Source of the DNA: a virus
Virus record (IMG/VR): IMGVR_UViG_3300034167_000387
Coordinates: 1 to 34,680 of that record
Reading direction: 5' to 3' (one strand)
DNA: 34,680 nt
Positions 1,618 to 15,240 of this stretch are shown here, one piece after another. The position numbers and the translations under genes were made by a program. The notes beneath the pieces were generated by a model. That model saw only the letters and a program-made list of their open reading frames with translations. It ran no database searches and was not told the DNA's origin. Each line of letters opens with the position of its first letter. Positions within the stretch are counted from its first letter, which is position 1.

Positions 1618-2049
1618 ATGCCACTAGATTTCCCCCCATCACCAAGCGTAAACAATACCTACTCCTTTGGCGGAAAAACATGGAAGTGGAACGGTGCTGC
1701 ATGGGAGGTATATTTCAGTATTGATAGCGGTGCTGCTGTCGTGGGTACCTCATTTGAAGTGGAAGTAACTGCTGGAGCAACTCAATACATTATTGGATTG
1801 CCTAATGATGTGGTGATAGGCAGTGGAATCAGCACAAATTATTTAAATTTTGCTAATGGAGCCACATTTTCGGGAAACTCTTCAGGAGTAACCTTATCAA
1901 ATAGTTTGAATGTTTCGGGTGATCTAAATATAGCAGGACGACTCCTCGTAGATGGGGTCATTGTCAGCAAATCAGGATTCAGTGGATTTACTGGAAACGG
2001 TATAGTTGAGCCAGTAACTGATGTAGACCTAGACGGAGGAGAATTCTAA
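1618..2049 (+). CDS. Small tail-fibre-associated protein
   Basis: This 143-residue protein starts MPLDFPPSPSVNNTYSFGG and continues KTWKWNGAAWEVY, an N-terminal signature I know from fibre or fibre-adaptor proteins of marine phages. The middle (about residues 50-125) is a Gly/Ser/Thr-rich beta repeat including GVTLSNSLNVSGDLNIAGRL, the same style as the larger fibres downstream. It ends VDLDGGEF, matching the DGG[TE][FY] tail found on three other fibres here. The ATG lies 4 bases after the upstream stop with only a weak and distant GGAG, so translation is probably coupled. The exact role (adaptor or short fibre) is inferred. Confidence 0.8.
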   Translation: MPLDFPPSPSVNNTYSFGGKTWKWNGAAWEVYFSIDSGAAVVGTSFEVEVTAGATQYIIGLPNDVVIGSGISTNYLNFANGATFSGNSSGVTLSNSLNVSGDLNIAGRLLVDGVIVSKSGFSGFTGNGIVEPVTDVDLDGGEF

Positions 2050-2050
2050 A

Positions 2051-3613
2051 ATGGCAATTATCCGTATAAAACGATCAACAGGAAGCAATTTACCATCAGG
2101 GCTTACCTTTGGCGAGTTGGCGTTTGTGCAAGGCACTGGAGCCACCGCAAATCGTTTGTATATTGCAACCAGTTCAGGTGGAACCGCATGGGTCGGCGCA
2201 GAGATTCTCAATTCTCCCACAAGTTGGCAGAATGAAACTGCCCAAACAACTATTCCAACTCTTCAGGCTGTTCGTGATTTTGTGGTTGGATTTGGTGGTG
2301 GCACATTCTCATCAGATGTTACTCTAAACCTTTCGGGATCAAAGAGTTTTGGAAAATATACCAATGGTCAAGTTTTGCCAGCGTCAGGAAGAACTCCCAT
2401 TCAAGTTATTCTTGACGCACTTGTTGAGTCTATAGTTCCTGGTGTAACGGTTCGTGCTCGTCCAGGACATGGCGACCCAACAATCACATACGCTGCCATT
2501 CCGTTTGGTGCAACTGCGATACGAAATGGTATAACATGGGGATACCAAATTAATACTCCTGGTGCTACTGCTTACGGTGCAACGCTAGAGTTTAAGCGTG
2601 GTGGAGGATTCAGCACAATATCTGGATCTTTTTGGGACACCACATCGCCTTTCTGGACACAAGCAGACGGCGGATACACGCTAAACTCGTACTTACACTC
2701 TTTCGCGCAGGATCAATACGATACATCAGCAATAACATATCGGTACAGCGTCCACGATAGTGGTGGAGCGGGATTGTCGTATTCGGAGGTCGTGGTAACT
2801 CCCACTGCTTATGTCATTCCAACAAACACTCTTACACCAACCCCACATATTGCAGGATCAGATAGCGGAACAAACCGAGAACGCGGAAACACTGGTACAA
2901 CTCTGTCGGGAAATATAACCAGTTCCAACGACACTAGGTGGATCAACATAACCGCATATCTTGTTCAATATCAAATTAATGGAAACTGGTATAATCAACT
3001 AAACAACACACTCAACGATGCCACATACACCACACTGGCTGCACCCGCTGGTTCAACCGCCGTTAGTCTATCAGTCAAGCCAACGATTTCACCGATAGAC
3101 TCTATTGCATTCCGAGTGTATGTAAAAGACACATACAGTACACTCGGTGCACAGTCTACTTCGCCTTCAACAGTTTCGTTCTACAAGAAACTGTTTTACG
3201 GTGCAACTTCGGATATCCCGACCACCGCAGCACAAGTACGACAACTTCCAAGTTCAGCAAAACTTGCTTATAACGATACATCTCATAAAACAACAGCAAC
3301 ATTTACTTTCCCAACAGGAACAGAATACAGAAAATTCGTTATTGCTCTTCCTGCGGGATTGACTCTAAACGGTCCTGCATTTGCAGGAGCGGGAACTCAG
3401 GGTGTAAAAAATCTTACAACTCCAGAAACTCTGTTTGGAAATTCCGTGGAAGCGTTGGATAAATTTGTTTTATCTACAGCAATTACTGTTGCAGACGACT
3501 TTTCAGGAACTGACATTAATTATAATATTTACACATACACGGCAGATACACCGTATGGCGGATCACAGGACTTCCAAGTCAACTACACTGGAAGACTGAT
3601 CAATACCACATAA
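2051..3613 (+). CDS. Tail fibre / adhesin with tropism-determinant-like head
   Basis: This 520-residue protein has an N-terminal head of about 45 residues (IRIKRSTGSNLPSGLTFGELAF, then LYIATSSGGTAWVGAE). It resembles the head domain of Bordetella phage Mtd-type tropism proteins (IxxxRGxxxPxGLTxGExAxN...LYIG). A short beta-repeat stretch follows and then a long all-beta region (about residues 125-520) rich in Thr, Tyr and Asn, with no catalytic motif that I recognise. A GGAGGAG ribosome site precedes the ATG, which lies 1 base after the upstream stop. The head probably docks the fibre to the virion and the long C-terminal region would bind or decorate. The ligand is unknown. Confidence 0.82.
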   Translation: MAIIRIKRSTGSNLPSGLTFGELAFVQGTGATANRLYIATSSGGTAWVGAEILNSPTSWQNETAQTTIPTLQAVRDFVVGFGGGTFSSDVTLNLSGSKSFGKYTNGQVLPASGRTPIQVILDALVESIVPGVTVRARPGHGDPTITYAAIPFGATAIRNGITWGYQINTPGATAYGATLEFKRGGGFSTISGSFWDTTSPFWTQADGGYTLNSYLHSFAQDQYDTSAITYRYSVHDSGGAGLSYSEVVVTPTAYVIPTNTLTPTPHIAGSDSGTNRERGNTGTTLSGNITSSNDTRWINITAYLVQYQINGNWYNQLNNTLNDATYTTLAAPAGSTAVSLSVKPTISPIDSIAFRVYVKDTYSTLGAQSTSPSTVSFYKKLFYGATSDIPTTAAQVRQLPSSAKLAYNDTSHKTTATFTFPTGTEYRKFVIALPAGLTLNGPAFAGAGTQGVKNLTTPETLFGNSVEALDKFVLSTAITVADDFSGTDINYNIYTYTADTPYGGSQDFQVNYTGRLINTT

Positions 3614-3625
3614 TAGAGAACACCG

Positions 3626-5698
3626 ATGCCTACTGTACCATATCCAGGATTACCGTTCTCACGAGGAATTCAACCGACCAACAAAGGTCCTGTTGACGCA
3701 TATATCGGTCCATACGGACATAATAGTACATCATATGGACCTGCTGCTGGCTCAACAGGAGCAGGAATTTGCCTTGCAAACGATAGTATTGCTCCTATTC
3801 TTCGTTATGTTGGTCAGTCTGTAATAATTCACGGTTGGTCTGCTTCTGAAGGAGCGACCTATGCGTATCTGTATTGGTATCGCGGCGGAACCGCAGACGA
3901 TGATCTTGAACTGTTTTCAGCAGGTTCTGCTTCCACTGCTTCCACTGATTCTGGTGTAACACTAGCAGTCGCTGGTGCAGGAATTCGTCTTTCTCCAGTA
4001 GGTGGAACAGGAACAGTTACATTTATCAATGATGGTGTGTTGTCGTTCAACGGCAATACGGGTGCTGTTACTGGTGCTTCACTTGGTGCAAACACCTTTA
4101 CTCAATTAAATACCTTTAATGCAGGTATCACCACATCATCCATCTACGCTTCGACAGGATCCACATTTGCTGGAACTCTGCAAGTAAACGGTGGTGTCAC
4201 ACTAGCAGCAACTCTTGATGTGACTAGTGTTGCTAAATTCAACAGCAATGTTACTCTCGGCGATGAAGTTACAGATATTATAACTGTAAATGGTCGGTTT
4301 ATAGCAAATGCAGGTATTACAGCAAATGCAGGTATCACTACCTCATTCATTTACGCATCCACGGGTTCTACTTTTGGTGCAAGAGTTGATGTTGCAGGTG
4401 TTCTTGATGTTGTTGGTGGCGTAACATTTGAAAGCACATCAGATCATGCTGGTGTTGCTCGGTTTGCGGCAGGAATTACATCATCAACGCTTGATGTTAC
4501 CAACCTTGCCAAGTTTAACAGTAATGTAACAATAGGCGACAACGCAGCAGATGTTCTAACAGTCACATCGGGTGCTACTTTTGGGATCACTGACCACAGC
4601 GGTGCCGCTAGATTTGCATCTACAGTTACAACAACAGGTATTCTTACTGCTAGTGGCGGAATTACCGCATCTACTGTAGATGTAACTGGTCTTGCCAAGT
4701 TTAACGGTAATGTAACCGTAGGAGACAACGCTGCCGATGTTCTAACAGTCACATCGGGTGCTACTTTTGGAATCACAGACTACTCAGGTATTGCTCGGTT
4801 TGCGGCAGGATTAACCACAAGCACTCTTGATGTTACTACTGTTTCTAAGTTTGCAGGTGGAGCAACATTCTCTTCCCCTGTTGATTTTGCTTCTGCTGCC
4901 AGATTTGCTTTGGGATTGACCTCTAGTGGAGATGTGGTTGTTGGGTCTGCTGGCACCGTACTCAAAACAAACGGCGATGCCACCATTGGTGCAACTCTCA
5001 CGGTGAACGGCAACTTCTTTGTTGCAGGAACACTGACCACGGTTAACAAAACCACTCTTGAAATTGACGATCCGACCATTACTCTTGGTAGAACTCTGGG
5101 CAATGATGCTCTTGCAGACGGCGGTGGACTGTCTCTCAATGGAACATCTCCTAGAACACTCACTTGGAGCAACAGTGCCGCCGCGTGGACAAGCAACGAC
5201 AACTTTAATGTTATTACTAATGTCGCTGGTTACGGCTATAAGATAGACAACACCACAGCCCTTGCTTTAGGCATGGTTCACGGGTTGAGTGCTTCGGCAG
5301 GAATAATTACTGGTGGCACATGGGCAGCAAACTCAATTGGTCTTACCTACGGTGGAACAAACAAGAATCTTGCTGCGGTGGGTGCCTCTGGTGGCGTGGT
5401 GTACAAAGACGGAACAGGACTAACGATTACCGCTGCGGGAACAGTTGGTCAGATTCTCCAAGCAAACAGCAGTGGTGCACCTGTATGGGTTAACACTACT
5501 TCCCTCACAGGAATCACAGCCGACAGAGTTAAAACCACCGACACGAATTCAGGAACATACTTCCTTACATTCGTGGCGGGTGCTTGTGCTTCCACAGATC
5601 TGCTTATTGATACCGCCGCAGGAGTAACTTATAATGCTGCATCTGGTGTACTGTCTTGTGTACAGTTGGAAGCACTTGTTGACGGTGGTACATTTTGA
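3626..5698 (+). CDS. Long repeat-rich tail fibre
   Basis: This 690-residue protein lacks the Mtd-like head of its neighbours and starts with a distinct domain of about 110 residues (MPTVPYPGLPFSRGIQP). It then carries SFNGNTGAVTGASLGANTFT and a series of beta-helix-like repeats (about residues 140-470) of the form GGVTFxSTxDxxGxARFAxGxTxSTLDVT. The TLTTVNKTTLEIDDPTITLG domain near residue 480 is also present in the 6869 fibre, and so is the ADGGGLSLNGT...TWSNSxxAW segment. It ends LVDGGTF. Repeat units inside the gene are nearly identical at DNA level, indicating recent tandem duplication. Trimeric fibre shaft and tip functions are inferred from composition and neighbours. Confidence 0.82.
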   Translation: MPTVPYPGLPFSRGIQPTNKGPVDAYIGPYGHNSTSYGPAAGSTGAGICLANDSIAPILRYVGQSVIIHGWSASEGATYAYLYWYRGGTADDDLELFSAGSASTASTDSGVTLAVAGAGIRLSPVGGTGTVTFINDGVLSFNGNTGAVTGASLGANTFTQLNTFNAGITTSSIYASTGSTFAGTLQVNGGVTLAATLDVTSVAKFNSNVTLGDEVTDIITVNGRFIANAGITANAGITTSFIYASTGSTFGARVDVAGVLDVVGGVTFESTSDHAGVARFAAGITSSTLDVTNLAKFNSNVTIGDNAADVLTVTSGATFGITDHSGAARFASTVTTTGILTASGGITASTVDVTGLAKFNGNVTVGDNAADVLTVTSGATFGITDYSGIARFAAGLTTSTLDVTTVSKFAGGATFSSPVDFASAARFALGLTSSGDVVVGSAGTVLKTNGDATIGATLTVNGNFFVAGTLTTVNKTTLEIDDPTITLGRTLGNDALADGGGLSLNGTSPRTLTWSNSAAAWTSNDNFNVITNVAGYGYKIDNTTALALGMVHGLSASAGIITGGTWAANSIGLTYGGTNKNLAAVGASGGVVYKDGTGLTITAAGTVGQILQANSSGAPVWVNTTSLTGITADRVKTTDTNSGTYFLTFVAGACASTDLLIDTAAGVTYNAASGVLSCVQLEALVDGGTF
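4303..4338 (+). repeat. 18-bp direct tandem duplication inside fibre gene
   Basis: Two adjacent 18-base copies (4303-4320 and 4321-4338) differ at a single base and keep the frame, adding six residues (ANAGIT type). This looks like a recent slippage event in the fibre shaft. Confidence 0.85.
4331..4465 (+). repeat. Shared fibre block, copy A
   Basis: This 135-bp stretch encodes FIYASTGSTFGARVDVAG and LDVVGGVTFESTSDHAG. Close DNA copies are at 8033-8167 (same length, mostly third-position differences) and 12478-12592. This suggests exchange or duplication of shaft modules between three different fibre genes. Confidence 0.82.
4505..4780 (+). repeat. Two near-identical 90-bp segments spaced 186 bp apart
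   Basis: Segments 4505-4594 and 4691-4780 are almost the same at DNA level. Both encode LAKFN[SG]NVT[IV]GDNAADV followed by LTVTSGATFGITD. The offset is exactly 62 codons, so the whole unit appears to be a tandem 186-bp duplication whose intervening part has diverged more. Confidence 0.85.
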
Positions 5699-5700
5699 TC

Positions 5701-5721
5701 ATCTAGTTTAATCGCCTAGAT
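5701..5721 (+). other. Small intergenic hairpin before coiled-coil gene
   Basis: ATCTAG (5701-5706) pairs with CTAGAT (5716-5721) across a 9-base loop, just after the stop of the 3626 fibre. No U-run follows, so it is not a typical intrinsic terminator. It may be a processing or stabilising hairpin, or chance. Confidence 0.4.
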
Positions 5722-5739
5722 AGAGTGAAAGGCTTTACT

Positions 5740-5955
5740 ATGAACGAACCAAATTACAATGAGACTGTTGTGATTCCGTTGCTTCAGAAGAAGTTTCAGG
5801 AACTCACTAACGCAAATCTAGTATTGGAGGCTAATCTTCTTGTAGAAAAGGAGAAAAATGCCTATTTACAAAAGCAGATAGCGTACATTCGTGGCGACAC
5901 ACCACCAAAGAAAAAGAAAAAAGATGACTTGGTGATAGACGGCAACGCTGTCTAA
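5740..5955 (+). CDS. Small coiled-coil protein of fibre cassette 1
   Basis: This 71-residue protein starts at the ATG at 5740, preceded by AAAGG at good spacing; the GTG 15 bases upstream lacks a site. The sequence is MNEPNYNETVVIPLLQKKFQ, then a predicted coiled coil to about residue 50, then a very basic patch PPKKKKKDD. It is a short paralogue of the 9229 protein (MESKNPNETILIPLLNKRL). Both share N-E-T-x-x-IPLL-x-K and E-A-x-LL at matching positions, and each lies immediately upstream of a fibre with an Mtd-like head. A trimerisation, docking or assembly role in the tail fibre is inferred. No enzyme motif is seen. Confidence 0.78.
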   Translation: MNEPNYNETVVIPLLQKKFQELTNANLVLEANLLVEKEKNAYLQKQIAYIRGDTPPKKKKKDDLVIDGNAV

Positions 5956-5963
5956 AATATTTA

Positions 5964-6818
5964 ATGGCACAAATAATCACAAAATATTCAACGACTTCTA
6001 ACACCTCGCCAACTGGCTTGACCACTGGCGAGTTGGCTGTGAATATTTCAGACAGAAAACTATACATTGGTGGCATAGTAGGAACGGTAAATCTGTCTGA
6101 TTCGTATGTAACCTCTTTTAATGGTGTAACAGGTGCAGTTCAGGGTGTGTCTGCCGCCAACGGACTTACAGGTGCGGTTACATGGGCAGCGGGTACAGGT
6201 CTAGATGTTTCCTCTGGTGGTGGAGCCATTACCTACGGAATTGGTGCGGGATTCGCACTACTACGCTCTGTTGGAAACACAGGGGATTTGGATAACATAC
6301 TTAATCCGAACATTGGCGACTTGGTGTTTGTGCAAAACCCTAACGGAACTTATTACTACTGGGATTACTACGCAGCAGGAGCGACACTCGCGTGGATTAA
6401 CATTAGTTTAATTTCAAATGCACTGCAAGGAGATCTGAACGGTGACGGATCTGTTAATGGTGCAGACCTTGGTATCTTGCTTAATGGTTGGGGAGACAAT
6501 ACTAACCGTTCCTTGACTGTCGGTATTAAAGACGGCATAACAGGTGCTTTTAAAATATTTGCAGACGGAAGCAACAATCCGAAAAAGCAAGACATGGTTG
6601 TGGTGTCAACCGAAGGCTTGACATCAGAATTTCGAGTAAACACAAACCAACTGTACTTTACGGGATTAGTTGAAATAGACGGAGAGAATGTGGATAAGGT
6701 TGCGTTAACCGTCTACAACGGAAAAACAGAACTGCTCAACACCACCGTTGACGGAACCCTGCAACTCCTTAACGGCGGAATTTCGGGTGGATTTATAGAC
6801 GGTGGAACATTTGTATAA
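5964..6818 (+). CDS. Tail fibre with Mtd-like head and a dockerin-like calcium loop
   Basis: This is a 284-residue fibre. The N-terminal head reads MAQIITKYSTTSNTSPTGLT then GELAVNISDRKLYIGG. A SFNGVTGAVQGV repeat (about residues 50-62) and a beta-rich middle containing NIGDLVFVQNPNGTYYYWD follow. Residues 157-177 read GDLNGDGSVNGADLGILLNGWG, with the preceding Gly included, and fit a single dockerin/EF-type loop (D157, N159, D161, S163, N165, D168). It ends FIDGGTFV. The start has no clear ribosome site and lies 8 bases after the upstream stop, so re-initiation is likely. It pairs with the upstream coiled-coil gene as a cassette. Calcium binding and virion location are inferred. Confidence 0.82.
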   Translation: MAQIITKYSTTSNTSPTGLTTGELAVNISDRKLYIGGIVGTVNLSDSYVTSFNGVTGAVQGVSAANGLTGAVTWAAGTGLDVSSGGGAITYGIGAGFALLRSVGNTGDLDNILNPNIGDLVFVQNPNGTYYYWDYYAAGATLAWINISLISNALQGDLNGDGSVNGADLGILLNGWGDNTNRSLTVGIKDGITGAFKIFADGSNNPKKQDMVVVSTEGLTSEFRVNTNQLYFTGLVEIDGENVDKVALTVYNGKTELLNTTVDGTLQLLNGGISGGFIDGGTFV

Positions 6819-6826
6819 TTACCTAT

Positions 6827-6849
6827 ATAGTAACAGCATACTTTACTAT
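6827..6849 (+). other. AT-rich intergenic hairpin before 6869 fibre
   Basis: ATAGTAA (6827-6833) and TTACTAT (6843-6849) form a 7-bp stem with a 9-base loop in the 50-base gap between two fibres. No terminator U-run follows. The AAGGA ribosome site for the next gene lies just downstream. Confidence 0.4.
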
Positions 6850-6868
6850 TAACTTTTAAGGAAACTAC

Positions 6869-9142
6869 ATGGCAACTCAACTAACTTTCCGCAGAGGCAC
6901 ATCCGAACCAACTCAAGCATCAGGGCTGACTCTTGGTGAACCAGCGTTTAATACCTCGCTGAGTACTTTCCATATTGGACGAGGAGCAGGTGTTACGGCT
7001 GCTTGGGTTGGTGCACAAATCAGTGGTCTGTCTACGGGTATTGCTGCGGGACTTACCTTGCAGGTTCCAACCATGTCTGCGGTTAAAGACTATGTTGCAA
7101 GCACCACATCTGGTGTTGCCACTCTAAACAGTTTAACAGGCGCAGTTACCCTTGCTGCTGGCACCAACATTGGAGTCACCGCTGCTAGTGGAAGTATTAC
7201 TGTTACGAATCAGGGTGTGCAAACCTTTAACGGTGCAACAGGTGCGGTAACAGGTGCATCTCTTGGTGCAAACACCTTCACGGCACTCAATACTTTCAAC
7301 GCAGGTATTACTGCATCATCCATCTACGCGTCCACAGGATCTACCTTTGGTGGAACTCTAAAGGTCGTTGGTGGAGCAACCTTTGATGGACGAGTTTATG
7401 TTGGTGGTAATGCTTTTGTTTACGGTGATTTTACCTCCAATGGTTCTGCGGTATTTGAGAGAGGCGTACAGTTTAAAAGCGGAGTAACATTTGATGCCGC
7501 AGCACACTTCGCAACTGGTTTAACTTCTGCTGGAGATATTCGGTTCAGCGGAACCGCAACAAAAAATATTCGTAGTAGCCAAGCACCCATAGTCATAACT
7601 GGTGTTAGTTCTGGTGCTACTGTTTCGTTAAATCGTATAACTCTACCTGTTACTGCCTCGGCACTGGAGTTGGGTTCGGCATCAGGGAATGTAAATATTG
7701 TAAACACATTTACTAGTGCTGCTGTTCCTGGATTAAGAATCCTAACAGACGATCAGGATTTCATTGGACAGTTCGGAACAGTTATTAAGCCTGGTACTTA
7801 CGCAAGTGCGGAAAGAACACAGACTCTCCAAGACGCAAGCGGCGTAATTGCACTCACTAGTCAGTTGATGGGGGCAGTGAACGGCTCTACCGCTGCAACC
7901 AACGCAGTGACTTCGTTCAACGGACTCACGGGTGCAGTTCAAGGTATTCAATCCTTTAACGGTGCAACAGGTGCAGCCACAGGTGCATCTCTTGGTGCAA
8001 ACACCTTTATTGGACTGAACACATTTAACGGAGGTATCACTACCTCATTCCTCTACGCATCGACTGGTTCTACCTTTGGTGCACGAGTTGATGTTGCTGG
8101 TATTCTTGATGTTGTTGGTGGTGTTACACTGGAATCCACCAGTGATCATGCTGGTGCTGCCAGATTTGCTTCAACAGTTGTTTCCACTGGTTCAGTAACC
8201 GCGAATGGTGGATTGACTGCTTCCACCTTTGATGTGAGTGGTACTGCTCGTTTGGCTAGTACACTTGCTGTTACTGGTGTTCTGACACAAACAGGAGGTG
8301 CTACCTTTGCATCCACCACTGATCATACTGGTGCTGCCAGGTTTGCATCAACGCTTGTTTCCACTGGTTCAGTAACTGCCAACGGCGGATTGACTGCTTC
8401 CACTCTTGATGTTTCGGGAGCGGCTCGTACCACAGGAGATGTTACTGTTGGTGCAACTCTAACAGTCAACGGAAACTTCCAAGTTTACGGAACGCTTACT
8501 ACTGTTAACCGCACAGACCTAAACATTGACGACAAAACCATTACGATGGGTCGCACCCTTGCAAATGATACTCTTGCAGACGGCGGTGGTTTAAGCCTGT
8601 CTGGAACTGCTGCTCGTACATGGACATGGAGCAATACTCGTTCAGCATGGGAAAGTAATCAAGGCGTAAATGTTGCTTCAACTTACGGGTATGCCGTAAA
8701 CGGTACAAGTGTTCTTACAAGTAATACACTGGGCAGCGGTGTTACTGGATCTAGTCTTACCAAAGTTGGAACACTGACAACAGGCGTATGGCAAGCCACA
8801 GCGATTGGTGCAACCTACGGTGGTACGGGAATTATTTCATACACCATTGGTGATGTGCTGTACGCAAACGGCACAAGTTCTCTTGCTAAACTTACTACTA
8901 CCACGGCAGGGTATCTGCTGGCGGCAAACGGTTCTGGTGCTGCTCCTGAGTACAAGCAAGTACTGATTAAAGACGCTGCTGCAAACTCTATTGCCACGAT
9001 CCTATCTGGATCAGGAACTCTTACTGCTACTATTCAGAATGCTACTTCATCAGCCAAGGGAGTTGCATCGTTTGATAACACAAACTTTACTGTTAGTACT
9101 GGAGCAGTTACGATTACAGGAGTAGACGGTGGCACTTACTGA
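6869..9142 (+). CDS. Long tail fibre with Mtd-like head
   Basis: At 757 residues this is the largest complete fibre in the window. The head is MATQLTFRRGTSEPTQASGL then TLGEPAFNTSLSTFHIGRG. Two NGATGA[VA]TGASLGANTF units and many GGATFxSTxDHTGAARFAST-type shaft repeats follow. Then come TLTTVNRTDLNIDDKTITMG with ADGGGLSLSGT, and a C-terminal section with IGATYGGTGIISYTIGDVLY, an arrangement known from cyanophage-type fibres. It ends GVDGGTY. Ribosome site AAGGA sits 8 bases before the ATG. The C-terminal half is a clear paralogue of the 3626 fibre. A trimeric receptor-binding role is inferred. Confidence 0.84.
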   Translation: MATQLTFRRGTSEPTQASGLTLGEPAFNTSLSTFHIGRGAGVTAAWVGAQISGLSTGIAAGLTLQVPTMSAVKDYVASTTSGVATLNSLTGAVTLAAGTNIGVTAASGSITVTNQGVQTFNGATGAVTGASLGANTFTALNTFNAGITASSIYASTGSTFGGTLKVVGGATFDGRVYVGGNAFVYGDFTSNGSAVFERGVQFKSGVTFDAAAHFATGLTSAGDIRFSGTATKNIRSSQAPIVITGVSSGATVSLNRITLPVTASALELGSASGNVNIVNTFTSAAVPGLRILTDDQDFIGQFGTVIKPGTYASAERTQTLQDASGVIALTSQLMGAVNGSTAATNAVTSFNGLTGAVQGIQSFNGATGAATGASLGANTFIGLNTFNGGITTSFLYASTGSTFGARVDVAGILDVVGGVTLESTSDHAGAARFASTVVSTGSVTANGGLTASTFDVSGTARLASTLAVTGVLTQTGGATFASTTDHTGAARFASTLVSTGSVTANGGLTASTLDVSGAARTTGDVTVGATLTVNGNFQVYGTLTTVNRTDLNIDDKTITMGRTLANDTLADGGGLSLSGTAARTWTWSNTRSAWESNQGVNVASTYGYAVNGTSVLTSNTLGSGVTGSSLTKVGTLTTGVWQATAIGATYGGTGIISYTIGDVLYANGTSSLAKLTTTTAGYLLAANGSGAAPEYKQVLIKDAAANSIATILSGSGTLTATIQNATSSAKGVASFDNTNFTVSTGAVTITGVDGGTY
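8033..8167 (+). repeat. Shared fibre block, copy B
   Basis: This 135-bp copy of the block at 4331-4465 encodes FLYASTGSTFGARVDVAG and LDVVGGVTLESTSDHAG. It is equal in length to copy A, with mainly synonymous differences. Confidence 0.82.
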
Positions 9143-9228: not shown

Positions 9229-9747
9229 ATGGAAAGCAAGAACCCGAACGAAACTATTTTGATTCCCCTTCTAAACAAGCGACTCACTGATCTTGTTGTT
9301 ACAAATATTTTAACTGAAGCCAGGTTACTGTACTGCGAAGAAGAGAAAACAGAACTGAAAACACTGTTGGAGAAAGAGCAGACTGCCGCAAAGCAGTTGG
9401 CTGAAGACAACTCATCTGCTTTCTCCAAAGCACTGCAAGAGCAAACGCAGAGCATTCGTGATACCTGTGAGCAGGAAAAAACTGCTGTGCAACAGGCTGC
9501 GGAGCACAGCAAGCAAGAAATTGCTAAAAATTGGGGGCAAGAACTTGCAACCCAAACAGGAAACCTTAATGCAAGGATTAGTGCCTTAACGGCAGAACTC
9601 CAATCATCCAATCAAATGGTTAGTTCTCTTCGCAAAGAGATTCAGGAGTTAACGGTACCAGTCGTTGTTGTGGAGGAAAAAACTACCCCACAACCGAAGC
9701 GAAACAGCAAAAAACTGGCTCCTGCAATGAGTAGTGATACCTACTAA
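9229..9747 (+). CDS. Coiled-coil protein of fibre cassette 2
   Basis: This 172-residue protein has an AAAGGAG ribosome site about 8 bases before the ATG. The N-terminus MESKNPNETILIPLLNKRLT matches the small 5740 protein. Residues about 30-145 are a long Glu/Lys/Gln/Ala-rich predicted coiled coil, followed by a Pro- and Lys-containing tail (TTPQPKRNSKKLAP). There is no signal peptide or catalytic motif. It lies just upstream of the 9769 fibre, mirroring the 5740/5964 pair. The longer coil is either an elaboration of the 5740 type or that gene is a shortened copy. A structural or assembly role is inferred. Confidence 0.8.
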   Translation: MESKNPNETILIPLLNKRLTDLVVTNILTEARLLYCEEEKTELKTLLEKEQTAAKQLAEDNSSAFSKALQEQTQSIRDTCEQEKTAVQQAAEHSKQEIAKNWGQELATQTGNLNARISALTAELQSSNQMVSSLRKEIQELTVPVVVVEEKTTPQPKRNSKKLAPAMSSDTY

Positions 9748-9768: not shown

Positions 9769-11895
9769 TTGGCAACACAAATTCAAATCAAGCGTGGCTC
9801 TACCACTCCAGCAGGACTAACTGTTGGCGAAAGTGCCATGAACACGAGCACCAACCAAATCTACTTGGGTGGAACGGGTGGAACTGTTTTGGTTGGTGGA
9901 GAAGTCACGGGTGGTGTAGACATGGGTGCAGGTTCGGCTGTTTCTGCCAATCGCATTCCCACACAGAGTGGTGTCTACAACTATGTTCGCAATAGTACCG
10001 TTACTTCGTTTAATGGACTCACAGGAGCCGTGGGTGGTGTGTGTGCAGCGCAAGCAAACACCTTTACCGCACTACAGACATTCACGGCAGGTATTTCCGC
10101 TGCGGGTGGCATGACGCTTGACGGCGGCAAGGTGTGGCACTCCCTAAATGACGGAATCACATCTGGTCTTGATGCAGGATTGGTTCACGGCGTGTGTGGT
10201 TCTAGATTCTTGGAGAACCTACAGACAGGTCTGCTGTACGGTGGACTCATTAGTGTGAACGCAGGAAACACTGCACAAGTGGATATTACCGCAGGTGCAG
10301 GAATAGTTGTTTCTCCTGGAGCATCACTCACAGCATACCCTATTCCCACGGTTACACCTGTTACATGGGCAGCAAAAACAGGGGTCACCCTTGCTGGATT
10401 GACTAGTAGTGACGAAACATGGATTGCTATTGATAGCAGTGGTAATCTTGTACAAACGCTTGTTGCATTTACTGATGCACAGTACTCTTCACAGATTCCC
10501 CTTGGCGCAGCACTTCACTTGTCGCGCACATACATTCAGTTGGTCAAGGGATATCCCCATGTTTCGTATGGACAACCAGAGCAGTTTGATCCGTTTATTC
10601 GTGCATTCGGAAACTTGAAACTATCGGGACACGAAATCTCTGCAAACGGAGCAAACCTAAATGTGAATCGCAGCGCAGGAAAAGCGTATGCGATGGGAAG
10701 AAACTACAGCAACGATCCAAACAATCCCAACATTGTTACCGATACGAGTGCTGCTCCTGCAACTGGAATATATCGTTTCTATCGCAACGGAAGTGGTGCA
10801 TTCACTACCGTTATCAACTCAGCAATTGATCCAACCAAGTACGATGACGGAACAGGCACTCTGCACACCACCACTTCTGCAAAGTTTACGATTCAGCGAA
10901 TATTCTATCTGCCTAATGAGCCATCTTTGTTGGGTGTCTATTACGGAAGACAAGAGTACAATTCCATTTCGGATGCACAGGCAAACATTCCATTTGAACC
11001 GTTTTCTGAAAGCGATTCTACGGCAACACAGGGCATTTTCTGTGGATGGCTCATAGTTCAAGGAAACTGCACAGCCTTAAACGACACAGCCGATGCCAAA
11101 TTTATTAATGCAGGGCTGTTTCGAAACACTTCAAATATTGGTGGTGGCGGTCTTGCAATTGCGTCTATTGACGACTTGAGTGATGTTACAACAACCACAC
11201 CATCCAACAACCAAGTGCTTCGATGGAACAGTGGCACAGCACAGTGGGTAAACAGCGATGTTTCCTCCTTGGCTGTTTCGTCCTTTAATGGACTCACTGG
11301 CGCAGTCACGGGTGTCACGGTGGGTGGTGCAAACACCTTCACGGAACTCAATAGTTTCAATGCAGGTGTTTCTGCATCTGCTCTTACAGTTTCAGGTGGA
11401 GCAACCTTCTCAGGTAATGTGTACTTGGGAGATTCCGCAACAGGAGTTACTGCCGAGTCAAATGATTTTGTGAGAATACTGGGAGGCACAGGAAGTGCAG
11501 CGTTCAAGTCTGGTTTTTACCAAACATATAAAGTACTTGCTGGATCTACAACTGGTGTTATATGTGCAACTCCAGAATTTAATTCTAATACCACTAGTGG
11601 TAGTTCTACTTTGGAAATTACTATATCATATACTCACCTTGTTGCTGGTCCCGTTTATACGACACCTATTGTTCATAAAATTATAATTCCTCTGATTTTT
11701 AGTTACGATGGTCTAATAGTTCTGGGTGATTATACGGAGTCAATTGTTAAAGGGGACTCTGGTTACTCACCACTCACTTTTACCATAGGTACGGAGGGAG
11801 GTTATTATAACAGATTAAAAATTTCTACCACTACACCAGCAGATGCTAAATTTACTTCTGGTCGGGGATTCCGAACAACAGTACAGGTACACTAA
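9769..11895 (+). CDS. Long tail fibre / spike with Mtd-like head (TTG start)
   Basis: This 708-residue fibre starts at TTG, chosen because AGGAG lies at correct spacing and the conserved head MATQIQIKRGSTTPAGLTVG begins there. The head continues ESAMNTSTNQIYLGG. A SFNGLTGAVGGV repeat follows. Then comes a long non-repetitive domain (about residues 120-470, including KVWHSLNDGITSGLDAGLVH and a late IFCGWLIVQGNCTALNDTAD segment), then IDDLSDVTTTTPSNNQVLRW, another SFNGLTGAVTGV unit, and a short C-terminal domain. It lacks the DGGTF tail. The large central domain distinguishes it from the 3626/6869 type. Ligand and enzymatic activity are not evident. Confidence 0.83.
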   Translation: MATQIQIKRGSTTPAGLTVGESAMNTSTNQIYLGGTGGTVLVGGEVTGGVDMGAGSAVSANRIPTQSGVYNYVRNSTVTSFNGLTGAVGGVCAAQANTFTALQTFTAGISAAGGMTLDGGKVWHSLNDGITSGLDAGLVHGVCGSRFLENLQTGLLYGGLISVNAGNTAQVDITAGAGIVVSPGASLTAYPIPTVTPVTWAAKTGVTLAGLTSSDETWIAIDSSGNLVQTLVAFTDAQYSSQIPLGAALHLSRTYIQLVKGYPHVSYGQPEQFDPFIRAFGNLKLSGHEISANGANLNVNRSAGKAYAMGRNYSNDPNNPNIVTDTSAAPATGIYRFYRNGSGAFTTVINSAIDPTKYDDGTGTLHTTTSAKFTIQRIFYLPNEPSLLGVYYGRQEYNSISDAQANIPFEPFSESDSTATQGIFCGWLIVQGNCTALNDTADAKFINAGLFRNTSNIGGGGLAIASIDDLSDVTTTTPSNNQVLRWNSGTAQWVNSDVSSLAVSSFNGLTGAVTGVTVGGANTFTELNSFNAGVSASALTVSGGATFSGNVYLGDSATGVTAESNDFVRILGGTGSAAFKSGFYQTYKVLAGSTTGVICATPEFNSNTTSGSSTLEITISYTHLVAGPVYTTPIVHKIIIPLIFSYDGLIVLGDYTESIVKGDSGYSPLTFTIGTEGGYYNRLKISTTTPADAKFTSGRGFRTTVQVH

Positions 11896-11896
11896 A

Positions 11897-12316
11897 ATGA
11901 TAAGCAAAAAGTACACAGTAAACTCAGTAGACTCAACTAATTTGCAAATCAGTGATATTACTGCAACCGATACTACCGCTGAAACTACCACGGCAGTATA
12001 CTCATTCACCATTGGAGAAGTACAGGGAGTGGTGTATCTAGTGCCACGAGAAGGAGTTTCTCATGTTGTGTTTGAAGCACTAAATAACTTTGTGCAGTCT
12101 CTAGAAGACGCAGAAACTAATTTTAATGCTCACACATTTTTCCGATTCATTATGGCAGCAGCAATACACCACCAAACAGAAACAGGCATAGTGTCTCTTA
12201 TATACAAGACCAAATCTGCACAGAAGCACAGAATTTATCAACTAATGTCTACACGCACGGGAATTCCTGCTGTGAACGAGTGGGAAGCAGAAATGACTGA
12301 AGGGGGTGTTGACTAA
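11897..12316 (+). CDS. Unknown small protein within fibre cluster
   Basis: This 139-residue protein starts at the ATG one base after the upstream stop (MISKKYTVNSVDSTNLQISD); the longer upstream frame overlaps the 9769 fibre and is rejected. It is mixed in composition, with Thr-rich N-terminal strands (TATDTTAETTTAVYSF), a VQGVVYLVPREGVSHVVFEA segment and probable helices (NAHTFFRFIMAAAIHHQTET). It is not beta-repetitive like its neighbours, so it may be an accessory or fibre-assembly factor. I do not recognise the family. Its stop overlaps the next ATG by one base (TAATG), implying translational coupling. Confidence 0.7.
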   Translation: MISKKYTVNSVDSTNLQISDITATDTTAETTTAVYSFTIGEVQGVVYLVPREGVSHVVFEALNNFVQSLEDAETNFNAHTFFRFIMAAAIHHQTETGIVSLIYKTKSAQKHRIYQLMSTRTGIPAVNEWEAEMTEGGVD

Positions 12317-13059
12317 TGGCAGTAGTTTCATACAATTCCGTTGGTGGGTACTCCACTGGTCTAACAATGACCGCTGTGATTGATCCCACTGCTAATATTA
12401 CTGGTGTTGGTGCAACATTCACAGGAACCTTTAGTGGCACAACAGGATCATTCTCTAGACTACTGACTGCAAGTGCGGGTATCACCACATCATTCATATA
12501 CGCTTCCACAGGATCTACCTTTGGTGCACGAGTCGATGTTGCTGGCATTCTTGATGTTGTTGGTGGAGTCACACTAGAATCAACTCTTGATGTAGTGGGT
12601 GTTTCTAGATTTGCTGGTGGTGTGACTTTTGCAGGAACACTTCAAGGAGCAACAGCATCTTTTAATAGATTAGTAAGTTTTACCGCAGGACTGTCGGGAA
12701 CAGGCATTACACTCAGCGGAAATCTGTCTGCTGCCACAAAGTCATTCGTGATTCCCCATCCAACCAAGCCGCACATGACACTGCAACACGGTTCGTTGGA
12801 AGGACCAGAAAACGGCGTGTATGTTCGTGGTCGGCTCACAGACACGGATACTATTCCGCTTCCTGAGTACTGGCATGGACTCGTTGACAGCAGCACCATT
12901 ACAGCATCTCTTACGGAGATCGGCAACTGCAACCACCACTGGATAGCCGCAGTGGAGGGCTATACAGTCACAGTGAACAGCGAGAGTGGTGCTATTGACT
13001 GCTTCTATACCGTGTGGGGTGAACGAAAAGATGTGGGCAAAATGCCTGTGGAGTATTAA
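12316..13059 (+). CDS. Short tail fibre with HPTKP/LEGPE C-terminal domain
   Basis: This 247-residue protein has an N-terminal half of fibre shaft repeats (TGTFSGTTGSFSRLLTASAG; STGSTFGARVDVAGILDVVG), nearly identical to blocks in the 3626 and 6869 fibres. The C-terminal half (about residues 140-247) is a distinct domain with FVIPHPTKPHMTLQHGSLEG, then VYVRGRLTDTDTIPLPEYW, and TVWGERKDVGKMPVEY at the end. I know this domain at the C-termini of fibre-like proteins in marine phages and some bacteria. It has no Mtd-like head, so it probably attaches through another fibre. The start overlaps the upstream stop (TAATG). Confidence 0.8.
   Translation: MAVVSYNSVGGYSTGLTMTAVIDPTANITGVGATFTGTFSGTTGSFSRLLTASAGITTSFIYASTGSTFGARVDVAGILDVVGGVTLESTLDVVGVSRFAGGVTFAGTLQGATASFNRLVSFTAGLSGTGITLSGNLSAATKSFVIPHPTKPHMTLQHGSLEGPENGVYVRGRLTDTDTIPLPEYWHGLVDSSTITASLTEIGNCNHHWIAAVEGYTVTVNSESGAIDCFYTVWGERKDVGKMPVEY
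12478..12592 (+). repeat. Shared fibre block, copy C
   Basis: This third copy of the shaft block found at 4331-4465 and 8033-8167 encodes FIYASTGSTFGARVDVAG and LDVVGGVTLEST, and then diverges. Confidence 0.78.
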
Positions 13060-13061
13060 TC

Positions 13062-13763
13062 ATGGCTGTGCAATACAATGCTGGCACTATAGCCACTGAT
13101 GGACTCGTTATTCTGATTGATCCAGGTTCGGAGCAATCATATAATGGTTCTGGTGTAACCATGACCAACCGTACAGGAAACGGACTGAACGGAACGCTGA
13201 CCAATAGCCCCACATACACTTACGCTAATGCGGGATCGTACATCACTACGGATGGTTCCAACGACCGCATTCAGTTTCCTGATAGCAGTCAGTACCAATT
13301 CCTGGGAACATCACCCTTTACCATTGATATGTGGATATATCCACTTGCAGTTGGTGGATATCAGCGAATACTAAACCGTGAAAGCAATCCTGGTGGTCTT
13401 CGTGATGGTTATACTGCATGGTTTTTAGTAAGTACGGGAGTTTATTATATTGGATTTGAGCGATTCGGTGCTAATGTGAATGGGGGAATTAGTACCACCA
13501 TTAGTAACCCAATAGGAATATGGCACAATTTTTCTTTTGTGTACAACGGAACCACTCTAACAATATATCAGTCTGGATTGCAAATCGCAGCCGCCACCTC
13601 AAGCCCAAGTATTACCAACACAACAGAATTGTTGGCTTTTGGTGGAGCAATAACATACGGTTCGTACTCAAACAACAGATTCGGACAGATCAAAGTGTAT
13701 AACCGTGGTTTATCCGCAACCGAAGTATATAACAACTACACCGCTATACGAGGAAGGTACTAA
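13062..13763 (+). CDS. LamG / concanavalin A-like lectin protein 1
   Basis: This 233-residue protein has a laminin-G-type jelly-roll pattern throughout: an early GLVILIDPGSEQSYNG strand, YITTDGSNDRIQFPDS (matching the family FDGxNDxI turn), FTIDMWIYP, WHNFSFVYNGTTLTIYQSG, and the closing IKVYNRGLSATEVYNNYTA. No signal peptide is present, consistent with a virion protein. It is the first of three tandem paralogues. LamG domains bind glycans or proteins, so a receptor-binding role at the fibre tips is inferred. The ATG lies 2 bases after the previous stop, with GGAG upstream. Confidence 0.86.
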   Translation: MAVQYNAGTIATDGLVILIDPGSEQSYNGSGVTMTNRTGNGLNGTLTNSPTYTYANAGSYITTDGSNDRIQFPDSSQYQFLGTSPFTIDMWIYPLAVGGYQRILNRESNPGGLRDGYTAWFLVSTGVYYIGFERFGANVNGGISTTISNPIGIWHNFSFVYNGTTLTIYQSGLQIAAATSSPSITNTTELLAFGGAITYGSYSNNRFGQIKVYNRGLSATEVYNNYTAIRGRY

Positions 13764-13768
13764 CTCTA

Positions 13769-14491
13769 ATGGCTCTTCAACACTCACCACAAATACCTGG
13801 GGACGGCATCATCTGGTTCATGGATGGGGCTAATTATCGCTGTTATGCTGGTACAGGTTTAACTGCTTCAGACATAAACACAACCACAACAAAATATTCT
13901 GGTTCTTTGGTGAATGGGGCAACATTTAGCAGAGAAGGTGGTGGATGTTTTGTGTTTGACGGCACTAATGACTATATTACAGCAGGAGATGTTCTAGACC
14001 AAACCGCATCTGATATCTCTTTGGTATGTTGGGGAAACCTGCCGACTTTAAATAGTAGCGCATCACAGGTGAATGCATTCATTCACAAGTTTGGGGCAAA
14101 CGGCAACTACCGCTTATATGTAAGCGGTGTATCTCCAGCAACTAGTGGTAGTTTAAACTATCAGATACGAAACAGTGTGAGCACAATTGATGCTATAAGC
14201 AATTATGTGGGGCTTCCAACCGTTACAATAAATACATGGAATCATATGGTGCTTACTCACTCGTATGCTTCCCGTGCTGTGCGGTTGTATCTGAATGGAA
14301 CTCTTCGGAGTAGTTGCACATTTGGAATAGATCGTGGAGATACAGCGGCAACCCTTGACTTGGGTTACGCATCAAACAACGCTGCGTATCTTAATGGAAA
14401 GATAGCCGTTGCTATGATATACAATCGTGTGCTTTCGGCAGATGAAGTTTCCCTTATGTACACATCTACGAAAGGCAGGTTTGGACTGTAA
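13769..14491 (+). CDS. LamG / concanavalin A-like lectin protein 2
   Basis: This 240-residue paralogue of the previous gene shows GDGIIWFMDGANYRCYAGTG, the FDGTNDYI turn at about residue 67, SLVCWGNLP, WNHMVLTHSYASRAVRLYLN and AMIYNRVLSADEVSLMYTS near the end. Its surface segments differ strongly from the first copy, whereas the start and end motifs are conserved. This suggests diversifying binding surfaces on one scaffold. It begins 5 bases after the previous stop and its own stop overlaps the next ATG (TAATG). Confidence 0.86.
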   Translation: MALQHSPQIPGDGIIWFMDGANYRCYAGTGLTASDINTTTTKYSGSLVNGATFSREGGGCFVFDGTNDYITAGDVLDQTASDISLVCWGNLPTLNSSASQVNAFIHKFGANGNYRLYVSGVSPATSGSLNYQIRNSVSTIDAISNYVGLPTVTINTWNHMVLTHSYASRAVRLYLNGTLRSSCTFGIDRGDTAATLDLGYASNNAAYLNGKIAVAMIYNRVLSADEVSLMYTSTKGRFGL

Positions 14492-15240
14492 TGGCAATAC
14501 ACGCAGGACCAGATACAACTGATTCAAATATCATATTTCAGTTTGATGCGCGTAATACTCGCTCGTATCCTGGATCGGGTTCTGTTTTATCTGATTTGGC
14601 TTCGCAGTTTTCTGGTAGTACGCTTACTAATGGTGCGGTGTACAGTCAGGAATCTTATGGAAGCATTTTGTTTGACGGAACAAATGATAATATAGAAACA
14701 CCAATACGAGCAGAAACATATGTACCCGCTCTTTCTAGTTGGTCTATGGCGTGTTGGATCAAAGTCACTAATTTTCCAACTGGTGGCGCAACAAATAGAG
14801 AGGGAATGGTGTTTGGTAGCGCGTACTATTCGGGAACAGGAATTTATTTTTCTTGTACTCCAGCAGGAGACTTTAGAGTTCGTGGGTATATTCGAGGACA
14901 AGATCAGCAAAGGATTACTAGTAATTACAGTTTAGTATTGAACAAAGCGCACAATCTGTGTATTGTTAATGATCGTTCTGATACAACCTTCAAACTGTAT
15001 ATTGATGGAGTATTGAAAGAATCAATAACTAGTGCTAGTCAGCAATACAATCCAGCATTAGCCATAGCACCAAATTTTGAAAATATTCGTATAAACAGAA
15101 ATCAAATTGATGGTGGTGGAGATCAAACATACACATACTTTCAAGGTTATGGATATCAGGCAAGCATTTATAACAAAGCACTTTCTGCGTCAGAAGTGCT
15201 TTCAAACTATAACGCACTACGAGGGAGATTTGAACTATGA
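14491..15240 (+). CDS. LamG / concanavalin A-like lectin protein 3
   Basis: This 249-residue third paralogue carries NIIFQFDARNTRSYPGSGS, the FDGTNDNI turn, WSMACWIKV, KAHNLCIVNDRSDTTFKLYI and ASIYNKALSASEVLSNYNAL followed by RGRFEL. All three LamG proteins end [YL]xxxxxxRGR[FY] or similar after the LSA[TDS]EV motif. It overlaps both neighbours (TAATG at the start, ATGA at the end), so the three lectins and the following small gene look co-translated. A receptor-binding role is inferred. Confidence 0.86.
   Translation: MAIHAGPDTTDSNIIFQFDARNTRSYPGSGSVLSDLASQFSGSTLTNGAVYSQESYGSILFDGTNDNIETPIRAETYVPALSSWSMACWIKVTNFPTGGATNREGMVFGSAYYSGTGIYFSCTPAGDFRVRGYIRGQDQQRITSNYSLVLNKAHNLCIVNDRSDTTFKLYIDGVLKESITSASQQYNPALAIAPNFENIRINRNQIDGGGDQTYTYFQGYGYQASIYNKALSASEVLSNYNALRGRFEL

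Follow-up and report, generated by a model that had tools for sequence, protein, structure and literature searches.

Little is known of how the proteins of a composite phage fibre find the right neighbour, and according to a 2022 review the T4 long tail fibre as a whole was still without an atomic structure (PMC9603124). For T4, reviews describe a joint between the C-terminus of gp36 and the N-terminus of gp37 (PMC9603124), in which gp36 binds the N-terminal region of its partner as a trimer (PMC3004832); what they name are these two protein ends and not the residues of a pentapeptide (PMC9603124, PMC3004832). A head-to-tail chain of trimers is also found in the neck fibre of Anabaena phage A-1(L), where gp82, gp81 and gp80 come from one operon and N-terminal hairpins of the next protein are modelled on the C-terminal domain of the previous one (PMC10966104). 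Short conserved docking peptides are known from the branched receptor-binding proteins of K1-5/SP6 and Klebsiella phages, for instance the peptide of 7–11 residues that docks the K1-5 receptor-binding protein on its adaptor (PMC6872550).

We compared these systems with a viral stretch of 34,680 bases (the window), for which the original prediction held that four fibre genes share a C-terminal DGG[TE][FY] tail although the domains preceding it differ. The common tail is confirmed: the ORFs at 1618–2049, 3626–5698, 5964–6818 and 6869–9142 end, directly before their stops, in DLDGGEF, LVDGGTF, FIDGGTFV and GVDGGTY. The pattern GAYGGNGGNNMNTWY has exactly four matches in the window, every one at the stop of one of these genes, whereas 100 shuffles gave 0.12 matches on average and never more than 2. 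The difference between the preceding domains holds for the last ~40 residues ahead of the tail but not for the whole of the proteins, as 3626–5698 and 6869–9142 are homologous, with 35% identity over about 600 residues that include a repeat region and an IDD-TI-GRTL..LADGGGLSL domain. None of the tagged proteins in the window matched a PHROG family.

The partner of this tag, which we call the plug, lies at the start of the next fibre gene, where the first ~50 residues belong to one family (MAxxIxxKRS....P..L..GELAxNxxDGxLYxx), which we call the socket. A profile built from a first sample of loci, fetched by the tag, recovers four sockets in the window (starting at 2051, 5964, 6869 and 9769) with E-values from 4e-9 to 2e-12. 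All features lie on the + strand. The first junction joins a 143-residue putative fibre adaptor without a socket (1618–2049; plug 1, DGGEF, 2032–2046) to a plugless fibre of 520 residues (2051–3613), whose residues 1–52 form socket 1 (2051–2206; E = 4e-10). The second chain starts with a 690-residue fibre, again without a socket (3626–5698; ending ALVDGGTF; plug 2, DGGTF, 5681–5695), followed by a 71-residue coiled-coil-like protein ending DLVIDGNAV (5740–5955) and then by a fibre of 284 residues (5964–6818), with socket 2 in residues 1–48 (5964–6107; E = 1.8e-12) and plug 3, DGGTF with one extra residue (V) behind it, at 6798–6812. The 757-residue fibre at 6869–9142 carries socket 3 in residues 1–51 (6869–7021; E = 4e-9) and plug 4, DGGTY, at 9125–9139. 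It is followed by a 172-residue protein (9229–9747), whose N-terminus is homologous to that of 5740–5955 (BLASTP E = 3e-8), and by the plugless terminal fibre of 708 residues (9769–11895), with socket 4 in residues 1–46 (9769–9906; E = 2e-12). Tags at 2049, 5698, 6818 and 9142 are thus followed by sockets at 2051, 5964, 6869 and 9769, while the untagged fibres of the cluster (2051–3613 and 9769–11895) are not followed by one. At all four junctions the plug gene is immediately 5′ of the socket gene, two of them with a coiled-coil ORF between. When the coiled-coil ORFs are skipped, the tag on a gene and the socket on the next fibre gene agree in 7/7 steps, for which the permutation p-value alone is 0.03 owing to the few genes, and the weight lies in the comparisons over many loci given below.

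Other features of the region were seen in passing. The 284-residue middle fibre holds a dockerin-like calcium loop (GDLNGDGSVNGADLGILLNGWG, residues 156–177; Pfam Dockerin_1 E = 0.0028, below the cut-off). The repeat TTSFIYASTGSTFGARVDVAG[IV]LDVVGGVT[LF]EST is nearly unchanged in 3626–5698, 6869–9142 and the N-terminal part of 12316–13059, which suggests a recent swap of shaft segments. Three tandem lectin-like genes (13062–13763, 13769–14491 and 14491–15240; LamG-type by eye) have [RK]GR[YF] near their C-termini, a distinct conservation that looks like ordinary homology.

The T4 junction resembles those of the window at both ends. The N-terminus of T4 gp37 matches the socket HMM directly (E = 2e-16), and the family of T4-type gp37 was also reached from the socket, again at the N-terminus (PHROG 1699, E = 1e-11; also matched in a viral fold library); this is the domain with which the four distal proteins of the window begin. 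Immediately upstream of gp37, T4 gp36 ends in DFGYY, and all 8 gp36 proteins examined, that of T4 included, end in D[FY]Gx[FY]; the other seven, from Straboviridae, have DYGTY, DFGTY, DFGYY, DYGTF, DFGTY, DFGTY and DFGAY. A search of seven genomes for D[FY]G-x-[FY]-stop hit the end of gene 36 every time, with no other match in six of them and one more in the seventh. The four window tags fit the wider pattern D-x-G-x-[FY], at or adjoining the C-terminus of the proximal protein, and the gene order is the same, the T4 junction being head-to-tail and those of the window known from their genes. By both ends and by gene order, the window joints can be assigned, at the level of sequence, to the gp36–gp37 kind. 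The window phage probably docks its segments physically in the same manner, the head-to-tail complex being known for T4 only (PMC9603124). The two differ in that T4 has D[FY]G in place of DGG, and a single junction, with a single socket in its genome, whereas the window has four junctions, three of them in one chain, and several plug and socket classes occur elsewhere. Two genomes depart from this layout: in IME13 (locus L270, 1201–2622) and in ORF318w of Aeh1 (locus L271, 1501–3474), both genes being read in part, a gp36-like N-terminal domain runs into a longer fibre gene, and the socket profile has no match in either whole genome. The annotation of the longer Aeh1 gene names a similarity to gp36 as well as gp37; the IME13 gene is the weaker case of the two, as the part read has a stop at codon 395 and the gene is annotated as a misc_feature.

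The A-1(L) neck fibre, compared by its description, is likewise an operon-encoded head-to-tail chain, but gp82 is described as ending at Leu241, which makes a plug ending in F/Y unlikely. The docking peptide of K1-5, SP6 and the Klebsiella phages sits at the N-terminus of the distal protein and binds a T4gp10-like domain, whereas the plug of the window is at the C-terminus of the proximal one.

We think it highly probable that each C-terminal plug docks in the socket with which the next fibre begins, so that hetero-fibres colinear with their genes are built. The docking peptide would be [VIL]-D-G-G-[TSN]-[FY]-COOH, inserting into or packing on the ~50-residue socket, with one plug per chain of each trimer presumably engaged. 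Segments would join C-terminus to N-terminus in gene order, from an adaptor (plug only) through one or more middle segments (socket and plug) to a terminal segment (socket only), so that the window would encode a chain of two segments (1618 and 2051) and one of four (3626, 5964, 6869 and 9769, in this order). T4 gp36 (DFGYY) and gp37 (N-terminal socket) would be the experimentally known member of this arrangement. The observations behind the proposal are the homology to T4, the association of plugs with the next socket, their enrichment at C-termini and the correlation of plug and socket classes; from these we infer the docking of DGG-type plugs.

The association was measured in a sample of loci that a DNA pattern of the socket had retrieved, whether or not they held a tag. 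Where the upstream gene could be read, a tag precedes 93 of 122 sockets (68 strict and 25 loose), compared to 29 of 773 other genes in the same loci (12 strict and 17 loose); the remaining 29 of the 122 sockets have no recognisable upstream plug. Looking from the plug, a socket lies at most three genes downstream of 119 of the 155 plugs away from locus edges in the first sample, and one or two genes downstream of 99 of 117 such plugs in a third; these tag–socket counts come from samples that are not phylogenetically independent and carry no phylogenetic correction. Among the 36 plugs of the first sample without such a socket, 10 have one elsewhere in the locus. No natural fusion of plug then socket in a single ORF was found among the fetched ORFs.

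The plug is also strongly confined to the ends of proteins, an enrichment whose absence would have refuted the original prediction. Over 117 loci picked by socket and not by tag, 79 of the 1,026 complete ORFs have DGGx[FY] exactly at the C-terminus, compared to 13 matches over the 305,397 other positions; over loci selected by VDGGTF-stop, with the query ORFs removed, the figures are 30 of 1,130 and 22 of 259,704. In viral contigs VDGGTF-stop is found in at least 119 stretches, and among the matches listed practically all are ORF ends, often of two or three consecutive tagged genes. The anagram GGDVTF-stop gave 4 matches in a complete scan. With a single stop codon, TAA, behind it VDGGTF gave at least 120 matches, compared to 25 in a complete scan for GTA-coded VDGGTF followed by Ala (four codons), at least 4 of these 25 being themselves C-terminal VDGGTFA-stop. 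Literature searches on DGGTF and on C-terminal fibre motifs returned nothing relevant, and a search of genome contigs gave a single, uninformative relative. Proteins of 89 residues ending AASVDGGTF occur in four loci (L016, 370–639; L034, 539–808; L035, 9484–9753; L036, 4066–4335), followed by an unrelated MAQIIDKQ..-type protein and with no socket nearby.

The original prediction offered a partner fibre, an assembly chaperone or proteolytic maturation as roles for the tag. The first is strongly favoured, with the first ~50 residues encoded by the next fibre gene as the partner. A conserved extreme C-terminus is what a maturation or sorting signal could also look like, but no signature of proteolysis was seen and no linked protease found. 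In a set of 253 non-redundant plug–socket pairs F/Y is the last residue in 231, leaving nothing behind the tag to cleave off, and such a signal leaves the socket association unexplained; we regard it as extremely unlikely.

The plug consensus over these 253 pairs is [VIL]-D(210)-G(222)-G(252)-T(152)/S/N-F(204)/Y(49), the G at −2 (252 of 253 pairs) and the final F/Y being partly built in by the tag pattern with which the pairs were collected. The codons of the tag are diverse, with glycine codons spread over all four types, and selection thus acts on the protein. This bears on a reading in which the tag would be conserved as nucleic acid, its codons serving as a DNA or RNA element, for instance as the ribosome-binding site (GGAGG) of the gene that follows. 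Such a site is indeed present in 38 of 79 tags when the next start is at most 3 nt away, compared to 12 of 97 when it is far, and the GGAGG in plug 1 (2032–2046) can double as the ribosome-binding site of the gene at 2051. But many tags are too distant from the next start, conservation extends to D, T/S/N and F/Y, which no Shine-Dalgarno sequence covers, and GGAGG is absent from the D[FY]Gx[FY] plugs of gp36 in 7/7 genomes, making an exclusively nucleic acid element scarcely credible. Another possibility is that duplication spread a common C-terminal domain of which the tag is a mere remnant. One large linkage group takes in most plug proteins, and the homology of 3626–5698 and 6869–9142 also speaks for it, but conservation is lacking in the ~40 residues ahead of the tag and 33 of the 253 plug proteins are BLAST singletons. 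Since common descent accounts neither for the match with the N-terminus of the next gene nor for the T4 gp36 ends, we consider it very improbable.

Sockets and plugs also vary together. Class 1 sockets (NAELAFNE..LYYG) follow small plug proteins (~98 residues) in which the variable residue x is N in 22 of 28 cases, and 27 of the 28 class 1 socket proteins have a plug of their own. Class 2 sockets (GELAxNxxDGKLYxK) follow large plug proteins with x = T in 77 of 104, and just 7 of the 104 class 2 socket proteins have their own plug, a pattern that reads as adaptor, middle and terminal segments. In loci holding both classes, T/S to other residues at x is 34:2 ahead of class 2 sockets and 8:27 ahead of class 1 (p = 2e-10). 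This match of classes suggests a specificity of pairing, though, with gene families inherited together, it is no proof of one.

Chains of the same layout are present in cultured phages, namely Pelagibacter phage Mosig, Methylophilales phage Melnitz, Limnohabitans phage DC31, Synechococcus phages S-CBS2 and S-CBS4 and Vibrio phages 172P1 and 1.208.B. In Mosig the chain runs from gp069 (..NAGAF) to gp068 (socket..IDGGSF), a 69-residue protein and gp066 (socket). A search of whole records gave two sockets each in Mosig, Melnitz, DC31, 172P1 and 1.208.B, all within the chain, and the three plugs among the 64 ORFs of 172P1 are also all within its chain. S-CBS2 has a second chain, gp030 (VDGGEIT), gp031 and gp032. 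In regions of Synechococcus phages S-CAM7, S-SKS1 and S-WAM2, found through the 757-residue or a related fibre, an internal domain is common to the fibres, and the matching gene has no plug.

The small genes between plug and socket bear on the possibility that a dedicated assembly chaperone, for instance a small coiled-coil protein, recognises the tag, or that the tag nucleates trimer folding, with the socket incidental. Small coiled-coil ORFs are often found between plug and socket genes, as in the two cases in the window, and some end plug-like (KDGGSF in locus L004, DGQTY in L007 and KDAGSF in L133). Terminal fibres, expected to need folding too, mostly lack the tag, as seen in class 2, so a general folding or chaperone tag is poorly suited. 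Most plug genes with a downstream socket gene adjoin it with no coiled-coil gene between (96 of 119 in the first sample, 67 of 99 in the third), and in T4 the plug is carried by gp36, whereas the fibre proteins needing gp57A are gp12, gp34 and gp37 (PMC3004832). We hold the chaperone reading to be unlikely, and docking in the next socket is preferred. The partner found for the tag is the N-terminal domain of the next fibre and not a chaperone, though the coiled-coil gene often between tagged and partner genes may have an accessory role. The coiled-coil-like family (e.g. NETxxIPLLxKxxxxLxxxN) includes 5740–5955 and 9229–9747 of the window and members in L004 (3873–4409), L007 (4871–5089) and L133 (upstream of 4786); these proteins could be plug mimics, caps or chaperones. 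A different family is found in Mosig, where gp067 (locus L253, 7710–7919), a basic protein of ~70 residues (..ELDRRLSKSKLIKKI..), lies between the middle plug gene and the terminal socket gene, and has relatives in matching position in L117, L118, L083 and L095.

The structure of the socket was approached through a 65-residue protein with little beyond socket and plug. Its AlphaFold2 monomer model, for which 137 sockets were used, shows a small and confidently predicted beta domain (pLDDT 87; strands 9–11, 25–28, 33–37 and 43–47), whereas the plug residues are uncertain (pLDDT 59). A model for a 152-residue socket-plus-plug family was discarded (pLDDT 40). In the PDB the socket model came closest to segments of trimeric fibre proteins from phages (streptococcal phage hyaluronidase, CBA120 TSP3 and Mtd), with no match below E = 0.05. 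The Mtd N-terminal domain (Pfam PF18454; PDB IDs: 1yu0–1yu3) has a weak likeness in fold (Foldseek probability 0.82, TM 0.49) and in sequence (Pfam E from 0.036 to 9e-4, below the cut-off): none of the sockets tested passes the 26.3-bit threshold, with matches of 14–20 bits and no match for the others. Proteins with a classical Mtd_N signature found by the socket profile differ further in that a tag is upstream in only 3 of 8. PDB sequence searches gave only designed beta-propellers and noise for the socket profile and nothing for the whole 757-residue fibre. The model supports the view of the socket as a probable fibre attachment domain, though it gives no support for docking itself.

We lean slightly towards a general address code in tailed phages, in which the order of segments would be fixed by the C-terminal pentapeptide together with matching N-terminal sockets, these falling into two or more orthogonal classes (class 1 paired with x = N/H, class 2 with x = T/S); gp36–gp37 would be its single-junction case. 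With a plug of five residues and a recognisable socket, the order of a fibre could be read straight from genome sequence. The pair may also be used to annotate many genes that are 'hypothetical' or doubtfully named, for instance gp051 of S-CBS2 (locus L260, 37607–38731), annotated as 'head decoration protein', which is laid out as socket plus plug, as the middle segments of fibre chains are.
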